Source: Candidatus Moraniibacteriota bacterium
GTDB taxonomy: Bacteria; Patescibacteriota; Minisyncoccia; Moranbacterales; UBA1568
Assembly (NCBI GenBank): GCA_903893925.1
Contig: CAITOC010000062.1
Span: 1-37,151 of the forward strand
DNA length: 37,151 nt
Direction: 5' to 3'
In this document: in pieces, positions 28,008 through 30,372 of the stretch
Layout: the number at the start of each line of letters is the position of its first letter
How positions within the stretch are numbered: position 1 is the first letter of the stretch
Program-made: the position numbers and the translations under genes
The notes under the pieces: generated by a model
Seen by the model: only the letters and a program-made list of their open reading frames with translations
Told to the model about the DNA's origin: nothing
The model's database searches: none

Positions 28008-28052
28008 TCCGAGGACGGTCCTCGGAAGAAACTTCCGGGCTTGTGGTGTAAT
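28008..28052 (+). repeat. REP-like palindrome with -10-like box, copy a
   Basis: The palindrome TCCGAGGACGGTCCTCGGA (28008-28026) is followed by a small GGAAGAAACTTCC hairpin and then TTGTGG-TGTAAT, with the last hexamer at 28047-28052. The distance from palindrome start to hexamer is 39 bp, the same as in the other three copies. It lies between the second GT-C-like gene and the AAA_14 ATPase. Confidence 0.8.
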
Positions 28053-28095
28053 ATCACTATTATTTTTCTTTTATATAAGCCATATAGTTTATGTG

Positions 28096-28124
28096 TTGAC
28101 TTTGTAACAGCATTAATATATACT
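28096..28124 (+). promoter_or_regulatory. Sigma-70-type promoter for the AAA_14 ATPase gene
   Basis: TTGACT (28096-28101) and TATACT (28119-28124) are separated by exactly 17 bp. Each matches its consensus in five of six positions. It is 73 bp upstream of the first ATG. An inverted repeat overlaps the spacer. Confidence 0.6.
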
Positions 28125-28137
28125 AATATTGCTGTTA
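28105..28137. promoter_or_regulatory. Inverted repeat overlapping promoter (operator candidate)
   Basis: The arms TAACAGCA (28105-28112) and TGCTGTTA (28130-28137) are perfect and separated by 17 AT-rich bases containing the -10 box. A dimeric repressor bound here would block the promoter; no regulator gene is adjacent. Confidence 0.5.
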
Positions 28138-28197
28138 TGACATCAAAAATACTAAATAAAATAGTGTTTTTTATAGTAACCTTAATCCATTATTATA

Positions 28198-29340
28198 ATG
28201 GTATATATGGAAAAAAAGTACATACATCGGGATATTGAAAAAAATATTGAGAACTGGATATTTAAGGATAAAATAATCATTCTGTATGGAGCGCGTCAGG
28301 TCGGAAAAACGACGTTAGCCAAGAAGCTTTTGCAAAAATATGGAAAGCAGGAGGATTACTTCAATTGTGAAATCGGTTCCATACGGCAAGCCTTGGAAAA
28401 GGAAGATCCGGTAGTGCTGAAAAAGATACTTGGCGACGGTCGCTTGATCGTTTTGGATGAAGCACAGAAGGTCGCCAATATCGGAGTGATCTTGAAATTA
28501 CTCGCCGACACATACCCAAAGATGCAGATTATCGCTACCGGATCCTCTTCTTTTGATCTGGCAAGCAAAGTGAATGAGCCATTGACCGGTCGGGCTCTAG
28601 AATTCACCCTGTTTCCTTTTTCGATGCGAGAATTAAAAAATATGTATAGGGAACATGAAATGACCGGTCAATTGGAGCATGCGCTTGTATACGGACTCTA
28701 CCCGGAAATAGTGCAAAGCAATGTGTTCGATTCCCGTCAGTTGTTGGAAAATCTGAGCAATAAATATCTGTATCAGGACATACTGATATTTGATAGGATC
28801 AAGAAATCGGATTTGGTCGTGAAGTTGCTTCAGTTGTTGGCGTTGCAGATCGGCAATGAAGTGTCCATCCACGAATTGGCGGTCAATCTGCAATGCAGTC
28901 GCGATACAGTCGTGAATTATCTGGATATCCTCGAGAAGACATTCGTTATTTTCACTCTTCATGCGTTCAGTCGCAACCAGCGAAAGGAGATCACGAAAAA
29001 ACGAAAGATATATTTCATCGATCTTGGGATCAGGAATAGCCTCATCAGCCGGTATAACGATTTGCCAGTGCGCGACGATGTCGGTGCGCTGTGGGAGAAT
29101 TTTTGCATTATTGAACGGCTGAAACGGATTCAATCCGACAACCTGTATTGTCAGAAGTACTTTTGGCGTACGACCGATCAGAAAGAAGTCGATTATGTGG
29201 AAGAGTATGATGCTCATCTGGATGGATATGAATTTAAATGGAGCAAAAGAAAGGCGTCCATGCCGAAGGAATTCATGGCGTATAAGAACAGCAGTATCAG
29301 CGTGATACACCGTGAAAATTATCAAGATTTCCTGACGTGA
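28198..29340 (+). CDS. AAA_14 / DUF4143 ATPase
   Basis: 380 residues. Walker A is YGARQVGKTTLAKKLL (residues about 30-45), Walker B is RLIVLDEAQKV, followed by the sensor-like IIATGSSSFDLASKVNEPLTGRALEF. The C-terminal DUF4143 part has VNLQCSRDTVVNYLDILEKTFVIF (a winged-helix-like region), KIYFIDLGIRNSLI and the final block FWRTTDQKEVDYVEE, which resembles a restriction-endonuclease-fold remnant. This family (COG1373) is abundant and its role is unsettled. The second ATG at 28207 is an alternative start: TATAAT at 28194-28199 would place transcription start close to it. It is flanked by REP-like palindromes. Confidence 0.9.
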   Translation: MVYMEKKYIHRDIEKNIENWIFKDKIIILYGARQVGKTTLAKKLLQKYGKQEDYFNCEIGSIRQALEKEDPVVLKKILGDGRLIVLDEAQKVANIGVILKLLADTYPKMQIIATGSSSFDLASKVNEPLTGRALEFTLFPFSMRELKNMYREHEMTGQLEHALVYGLYPEIVQSNVFDSRQLLENLSNKYLYQDILIFDRIKKSDLVVKLLQLLALQIGNEVSIHELAVNLQCSRDTVVNYLDILEKTFVIFTLHAFSRNQRKEITKKRKIYFIDLGIRNSLISRYNDLPVRDDVGALWENFCIIERLKRIQSDNLYCQKYFWRTTDQKEVDYVEEYDAHLDGYEFKWSKRKASMPKEFMAYKNSSISVIHRENYQDFLT

Positions 29341-29397
29341 TGCATCGGAGGGGATCAGGGAGCGGGTTGGGAGGAGGGAACCGTTAACGAGTTAATG

Positions 29398-29496
29398 AGT
29401 CCATAAAGTCCATAAAGTCCATAAAGTCTATCAAGTCGAAAGTCGATGAGAAGAGTATATAAAGTCCATAAAATCTGTAAAGTCTATCAAGTCCAA
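29398..29496. repeat. 9-bp tandem repeat tract (AGTCCATAA)
   Basis: Three exact AGTCCATAA units (29398-29424), then variants AGTCTATCA and AGTCGAA. After a break near 29434-29461 comes a second run: AAGTCCATA, AAATCTGTA, AAGTCTATC and AAGTCCAAA. It is not coding. A short relative (AAGTCTGTAAAGTC) occurs at about 1799-1812. It fills the spacer between the ATPase and RAYT regions together with palindrome copy b. Confidence 0.7.
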
Positions 29497-29508
29497 ATTC
29501 GAAAGCTC

Positions 29509-29553
29509 TCCGAGGACGGTCCTCGGAAGAAACTTCCGTTTTTGTGGTATAAT
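29509..29553 (+). repeat. REP-like palindrome with -10-like box, copy b
   Basis: The palindrome TCCGAGGACGGTCCTCGGA (29509-29527) is followed by GGAAGAAACTTCC and then TTGTGG-TATAAT with a perfect -10 hexamer at 29548-29553; the start-to-start distance is 39 bp. No gene starts directly after it. Confidence 0.8.
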
Positions 29554-29634
29554 ATGCGCAATTATTTGTTATGCCCATCATGGCATGACATCAAATAATA
29601 CCTCTTATACGCTTACATAAAACAAGTGAACGTT

Positions 29635-29680
29635 CTCCGAGGACCGTCCTCGGAGTAATTGCTCGATTTTGTGATATAAT
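29635..29680 (+). repeat. REP-like palindrome with -10 box, copy c, RAYT promoter
   Basis: A perfect 21-bp palindrome with arms CTCCGAGGAC and GTCCTCGGAG (29635-29655) is followed by TTTTGTGA-TATAAT with the hexamer at 29675-29680, again 39 bp from TCCGA. Only six bases separate this -10 from the transposase ATG at 29687, so transcription would begin at or next to the start codon. Confidence 0.8.
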
Positions 29681-29686
29681 AATCAC

Positions 29687-30316
29687 ATGAGACGAAGGGA
29701 TCTTATCGCGATCGGCGAATATTATCATGTGTTCAACCGCGGAGTGGAGAAACGGACTCTTTTTGATGAGACCGATGATTATGAACGTTTTCTCGAGTCG
29801 ATGTTGTACTTCAATATCGAGACACCGACAGTGATGAAGACCGATGACAAGGTCTTGCCGGAGGAGGATGACCGGTTGGTCGATATCGTGGCATATTGTC
29901 TGAACAGGAATCACTTCCATTTCATTTTGAAGGAGAACAAGAAGAATGGTATCGCGATGTTCATGAAAAAGATCTGTACCGGATACGCGATGTATTACAA
30001 TAGCAAGAATGACCGGACAGGCGTCTTGTTTCAGGGGCGATTCAAGTCAGTACATCTGTCCTCGAACGACGTGCTTTTGTACGTCTCGGCGTATGTGAAT
30101 TGCAACAGTCAGGTGCACGGTCGGGAGGACGCTGAATCATATCTATGGTGCAGCTTTCTCGAGTATATGGGGGATGGCAAGGGCGCCTTGGTTTGCCAGA
30201 AGGAATCAGTCCTCGGTCAATTTACGGACGTATCTTCATATAAACGATTCTGTATGGACAAGGTGATCGGCATGCAAGATCGCAAGCGGTTCGAGCATGC
30301 ACTCGTCGAATCTTGA
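29687..30316 (+). CDS. REP-associated tyrosine transposase (RAYT, Y1_Tnp/HUH)
   Basis: 209 residues. It opens with YYHVFNRGVEKRTLF, the Y1_Tnp signature. YCLNRNHFHFILKE holds the HUH metal motif (H-F-H). KKICTGYAMYYNSKNDRTGVLFQGRFK contains the candidate catalytic tyrosine and the conserved R-G-x-LFQGRFK end. SAYVNCNSQVHG and YLWCSFLEY follow. Such single-strand HUH transposases mobilise REP hairpins. This gene is flanked by two palindromes of one family (29635-29655 and 30321-30353), consistent with an IS200-like unit or a domesticated RAYT. There is no Shine-Dalgarno, and the -10 box lies six bases upstream, so leaderless translation is plausible. The protein looks intact. Confidence 0.92.
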   Translation: MRRRDLIAIGEYYHVFNRGVEKRTLFDETDDYERFLESMLYFNIETPTVMKTDDKVLPEEDDRLVDIVAYCLNRNHFHFILKENKKNGIAMFMKKICTGYAMYYNSKNDRTGVLFQGRFKSVHLSSNDVLLYVSAYVNCNSQVHGREDAESYLWCSFLEYMGDGKGALVCQKESVLGQFTDVSSYKRFCMDKVIGMQDRKRFEHALVES

Positions 30317-30320
30317 TTAG

Positions 30321-30372
30321 AATTCTCTCCGAGGACGGTCCTCGGAGAGAATTTCAAATTTTGTGGCATAAT
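30321..30372 (+). repeat. REP-like palindrome with -10-like box, copy d
   Basis: A perfect 33-bp palindrome (arms 30321-30336 and 30338-30353 around G30337) directly after the transposase stop. It is followed by TTTTGTGG-CATAAT with the hexamer at 30367-30372, 39 bp from TCCGA (30328). It is the longest palindrome of the four. Confidence 0.85.

Follow-up and report, generated by a model that had tools for sequence, protein, structure and literature searches.

Four short palindromes within the window, the whole 37,151-nt stretch of DNA that was analysed, are each followed at the same distance by a hexamer resembling a −10 element, and two of them lie on either side of a RAYT transposase gene. 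This locus raises the question of whether palindrome and hexamer form a portable expression module, as a sequence-only reading had proposed, a flank recognised by the transposase or a part of the control region of the transposase gene itself.

Palindromes and boxes around the transposase gene

The palindrome, P (TCCGAGGACNGTCCTCGGA), was detected as four exact matches starting at 28008, 29509, 29636 and 30328 (copies a to d), against a chance expectation of 0.03 matches at up to three mismatches. Each of these copies, when single-stranded, folds into a hairpin with a stem of 8 bp or longer and a 3-nt loop. The distance from the first base of P to the hexamer was 39 bp in all four copies and each hexamer was preceded by TTGTGR, confirming the arrangement originally reported for this region. 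The features are as follows.

28008 to 28026, + strand: P copy a (exact match)
28041 to 28052, + strand: box of copy a, TTGTGG TGTAAT, with the hexamer at 28047, 39 bp from the start of P, and G at −11 (sequence, alignment)
28207 to 29340, + strand: AAA_14-DUF4143 ATPase between copies a and b, PADLOC candidate PDC-S01 (Pfam; PADLOC, E 7.6e-142)
29509 to 29527, + strand: P copy b (exact match)
29542 to 29553, + strand: box of copy b, TTGTGG TATAAT, with the hexamer at 29548 (sequence)
29636 to 29654, + strand: P copy c, the 5′ flank of the RAYT gene, with its centre 42 nt before the ATG (exact match)
29669 to 29680, + strand: extended −10 element of copy c, TTGTGA TATAAT, with the hexamer at 29675, 6 nt before the RAYT ATG; predicted leaderless-type promoter (geometry conserved in 11 RAYTs)
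29687 to 30316, + strand: RAYT/TnpA_REP, 209 aa, Y1/HUH transposase (Pfam Y1_Tnp, E 3.1e-6; motifs)
30328 to 30346, + strand: P copy d, the 3′ flank of the RAYT gene (exact match)
30361 to 30372, + strand: box of copy d, TTGTGG CATAAT, with the hexamer at 30367, facing an oppositely reading gene (sequence, neighbour orientation)

Copies c and d enclose the transposase gene, and the second sequence said to be shared by two copies was found as GGAAGAAACTTCC at copies a and b. The description of all four copies as having one orientation holds when judged by the side on which the box lies but not for P itself, which is symmetric and gives no direction; hence, the orientation of the copies rests on the box. 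Degenerate tandem AAGTCCATA/AAGTCTATC units were observed at 29390 to 29500, directly before copy b.

The RAYT protein matched the Y1_Tnp domain above the Pfam cut-off and contained both an HUH motif (HFH, residues 76 to 78) and a tyrosine motif (LLYVSAYVN, residues 130 to 138), while the match to NCBIfam REP_Tyr_transpos was below the cut-off (20.4 of 80 bits). Copies of P are also scattered elsewhere in the host genome, with 16 detected at up to one mismatch (window copies included) as compared with none for a control pattern. The best explanation of these sequence features is that P is the putative cognate REP-like palindrome of this RAYT.

A scan of genome contigs with the RAYT as query produced one match, a distant one in Clostridia. 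A second RAYT paralogue, 44% identical, is located on another contig (L027, G000:C12:38500-43000, positions 1739 to 2431, − strand). This paralogue has its own REP family (GGGAGTTCGACTCCCATGGGAGTCGAACTCCC) on the 3′ side, arranged as a REPIN-like inverted pair, a single GGAGTTCGACTCC hairpin on the 5′ side and one inverted pair within the gene that leaves the reading frame intact.

Geometry at the 5′ ends of related transposase genes

Ten more RAYTs, 52 to 69% identical to the window RAYT and belonging to four other families, were recovered when 131 genomes from the same order were searched. The resulting clade set of 11 RAYTs, inclusive of the window RAYT, spans five families of one order at 52 to 100% identity. 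All 11 genes had a palindrome with the core GGACNGTCC on both sides, a single mismatch (GGACGGTTC) being present at one RAYT. In every case, the centre of the 5′ palindrome preceded the ATG by 40, 41 or 42 nt and the −10 hexamer preceded it by 6 nt (7 nt in one case), with T−12, A−11 and T−7 of this hexamer conserved in 11/11. The summed −10 score was 73 as compared to a mean of −8.5 (sd 11.4) for shuffled sequences, none of 5,000 shuffles reaching as high a value, and the spacer was merely 45% identical among the 11 RAYTs. The arms of the palindrome covaried, with five pairs changed on both sides and a covariation of 0.255 versus 0.100 in shuffled alignments.

The distance between the stop codon and the 3′ palindrome ranged from 3 to 45 nt, indicating that the spacing is fixed on the promoter side only, and the spacing of P varied outside this RAYT clade. 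As the 5′ spacing was kept in 11 RAYTs while the 3′ spacing was free, the 39-bp constancy in the window appears to reflect how P is placed in the leaderless-type promoter of the RAYT itself. Both the fixed spacing and its association with the RAYT were borne out beyond the window. TATAAT-like hexamers tended to follow TGTGR in the host (143 upstream regions, about 250 kb), and hence the box of copy c agrees with ordinary host promoters; we infer that transcription from copy c would start at the RAYT ATG. The combination of a palindrome plus a promoter thus stood up at copy c, where the geometry is conserved and a promoter is predicted, but not as a general portable expression module.

No −35 consensus was detected at the location of P, which overlaps the −35 region; hence, control of transcription through P at about −41 is a reasonable hypothesis. 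In one genome (G431), P and the promoter were tandemly duplicated directly before the RAYT gene. Palindromes were also present in frame within RAYT genes of G030, G031 and G462 and within the C12 paralogue but were absent from the interior of the window RAYT.

Copies across the genus and accounts of the repeated unit

Copies of P at up to one mismatch were counted in the host genome (1.18 Mb, 88 contigs) and in a second genome of the same genus (G005). Seven copies in G005 brought the total to 23, and a box was present at 15 (11 of 16 in the host and 4 of 7 in G005). The distance from the first base of P to the hexamer was 39 bp in 14 boxed copies and 38 bp in the other one. The TTGTGR-hexamer was lacking in 8/23 copies, an outcome that the sequence-only reading had named as counting against its proposal. 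The box motif TTDTGNYATAATAT had seven occurrences in the host genome and two in G005, every one at P.

Identity between loci was 82% for the box columns and 48% for the 13-nt spacer (Mann-Whitney p 1.3e-4) and dropped to 27% in the flank upstream of P and to 36% after the box. From these limits in the alignment, the repeated unit is estimated as approximately 47 bp, consisting of TTC, P, about 13 nt and TTRTGNYATAATATT and ending at ATAATATT; the 5′ flanks of P end in TTC, CTC or similar. This combination of P and box without a gene was present at no fewer than seven separate places. Scattering of P with a box was restricted to this genus (two genomes, the host and G005); the scattered palindromes examined in G030, G031, G056, G431 and G433 were boxless, the exception being the tandem duplicate before the G431 RAYT. 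A close RAYT was not found in G005, although this genome has boxed copies. Protein searches with the upstream neighbour or the G005 neighbour detected no syntenic empty locus, and no P was present in the viral contigs searched.

We consider it probable, with some reservation, that the 5′ palindrome and promoter of the RAYT constitute one module, which in this genus has given rise to a repeated unit that lacks the gene. In the RAYT clade, P and the leaderless-type extended −10 element would thus act as a single module of fixed geometry, and in this genus the gene-free module would have been multiplied, with the RAYT as the probable agent and the single-stranded hairpin as its substrate. The distribution of copies suggests that the box was derived from the 5′ end of the RAYT gene, while the reverse direction, in which a gene captured the box, is possible. 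Most copies would no longer be promoters of neighbouring genes. Counting against this explanation are the eight boxless copies, which indicate that P alone may also move, the departure of copy c from the scattered consensus right after the hexamer, the failure of the protein searches to detect an empty locus and the result that no close RAYT was found in G005.

A transposase recognition or cleavage flank, an alternative that the sequence-only reading had also named, which would follow the hairpin on its 3′ side at a set distance like the right ends of IS200/IS605 elements, is a possible but distinctly less probable account of the scattered box, whose −10 likeness would then be secondary or reused by the RAYT gene. 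Consistent with such a flank, the box was more conserved than the spacer and in a fixed register even in copies without a gene to drive, TTATG-G-CATAA is itself palindromic, and the TnpA_REP of E. coli cuts at a CT on either the 5′ or the 3′ side of the hairpin (PMC8266576). The invariant columns of the scattered boxes were TG and TAATA (TACTA in C79), with variation at −12 and −11 that is unlike promoter constraint, indicating that promoter function is unlikely to be the reason for which these boxes were kept; the putative accounts that remain are recent descent from a master copy and recognition of the flank by a transposase. However, related RAYTs have bare copies of P and a boxless 3′ P, suggesting that their transposases need no box, and the bases kept in 11/11 hexamers at the RAYT 5′ end are a promoter pattern.

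It is doubtful that P serves as a double-stranded operator at −41 for a regulator, which might be the RAYT or a protein of the host, with the copies forming a regulon or titrating this regulator. The constant position of P over the −35 region, 40 to 42 nt before the probable start (ATG) of 11 RAYTs, and the covarying arms would fit an operator, but P also occurs bare, 3′ of RAYT genes and inside them, which is REP-like behaviour, the spacing varies outside the clade, and the TnpA_REP studied binds a single-stranded hairpin (PMC8266576). A related and similarly speculative idea is that the leaderless promoter of the RAYT is regulated via the REP at about −41 by the RAYT or by a partner while dispersed copies of P and box titrate the regulator; if so, REP copy number would feed back on transposase expression.

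The spread of copies by provision of promoters to neighbouring genes was rejected as the main reading and is improbable. Copies a and b and the G005 copy on C54 do face same-direction genes (the PDC-S01 ATPase, the RAYT and an AbiE pair, respectively), and host promoters favour TGTGR before TATAAT. Nevertheless, most boxed copies in the host and G005 are directed at the 3′ end of a gene on the other strand, as judged from mechanical gene calls that may include shadow ORFs next to the C34 and C88 copies. Furthermore, 13/15 boxes deviate from the promoter hexamer, with C at −12 in 11 and G at −11 in two (copy a and the G005 AbiE-pair copy, both of which face genes), and TATAAT was present only in copies b and c. 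The ATPase behind copy a has a TATAAT of its own at 28194 to 28199, 7 nt before the probable ATG at 28207, and the scattered copies examined in the five related genomes are boxless. The scattered copies are, on these sequence features, better read as REP units keeping the box of the RAYT 5′ end. Recent common descent without functional constraint, as might be suggested by near-identical tandem or array duplicates (C81, C34), is an equally weak account of the shared spacing given the different identities of box and spacer between loci and the retention of this spacing across RAYTs just 52 to 69% identical to the window RAYT.

Several other repeats and genes were observed near P. A composite element with palindrome Q (CTACCATATAATATTATATGGTAG) at its other end was envisaged, but Q was rejected as a necessary part, as it also occurs alone and in a genome without P copies. 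A second perfect palindrome, TTACTACCATATAATATTATATGGTAGTAA, with TATAAT on both strands, was present in 4/6 genomes of the genus, often within 200 bp of P (L017, 949 to 972 and 1199 to 1222; L020, 9212 to 9235; L019, 2481 to 2504; G002, G004 and G005). Downstream of a boxed copy in both genomes, P is followed directly by TTTTTAAGCCACAAT (L021, 7068 to 7086; L036, 3827 to 3845), and the pair resembles a very short unit with a promoter-like box and a terminator-like hairpin. A sequence designated CGTCTTTGCGAGGCCTCGTCGGCCGAAGCAATCC, which resembles a widespread bacterial intergenic repeat, lies beside P copies at L021 6985 to 7025, and a variant adjoins P in G005:C33. A ferredoxin-like frame that is intact in C34 is broken at a P copy in C88 (L021, 6897 to 6980, versus L017, 1480 to 1560), making this break a candidate insertion or rearrangement junction. 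Genes located between same-direction copies of P include the candidate defence ATPase of the window and an AbiEi/AbiEii pair (L035, 2821 to 4108), and further genes are separated by P copies in G431/G433 (L170), as if cargo between direct palindromes were mobile. A bare P at L037 3663 (G005:C7) is located about 440 bp upstream of a gene with a resemblance, judged by eye, to Cas12a.

Comparison with known repeat systems

These features bear on how RAYTs are expressed and how they are kept harmless as their REPs persist. The presence of a REP with covarying arms in a constant position over the promoter of the cognate transposase gene, in 11 genes from five families, makes self-regulation directly testable, and the genus-specific spread of a REP with a promoter box would represent a REP unit enlarged by part of the control region of its parent gene.

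RAYTs with REPs on either side are well known from earlier work (PMC2817692, PMC6006769), and in a limited check of the literature the word "promoter" was absent from three RAYT/REP papers (PMC6006769, PMC2817692, PMC8266576). Small repeats with putative promoter sequences are known from Neisseria as Correia/NEMIS elements (PMC2229807), but those are of a TIR type with TA target duplication and unrelated sequence, whereas the box of the P-box unit would derive from, or equal, the RAYT promoter. IS200/IS605 elements (IS608, ISDra2) share with the window system an HUH-Y1 transposase, same-strand hairpins at both ends and sites at a fixed distance from the hairpin; however, the window RAYT has low Y1_Tnp similarity, and any ends and cleavage sites of its system would be putative. 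P resembles the REPs and BIMEs of E. coli and Stenotrophomonas (PMC2817692, PMC8266576) in being a short, perfect, GC-rich and RAYT-linked hairpin with an 8-bp stem and a 3-nt loop. It differs in copy number, with 16 per genome and not over 100, and in the RAYT-flanking copies pointing the same way when oriented by the box, which lies 3′ of both, rather than the inverted arrangement of the RAYT type of Nunvar et al. (2010).

The closest likeness is to the RAYT/TnpA_REP REPtron, especially subclass 2.4/RAYT group 4 (PMC6006769), with a Y1 HUH transposase, flanking cognate palindromes and scattered palindromes. REPs are inserted in frame inside transposase genes of subclass 2.4 (PMC6006769); in-frame palindromes are present in some related RAYT genes but not in the window RAYT, and its assignment to this subclass would be tentative. 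In contrast to the REPtron, the 5′ foot of the hairpin lacks GT[AG]G, the canonical mark of a REP, and has the conserved GGACNGTCC core in its place, and the repeated unit of this genus includes a promoter-like box at a fixed distance. The P-box system would, therefore, appear to be a new variant of RAYT/REP.
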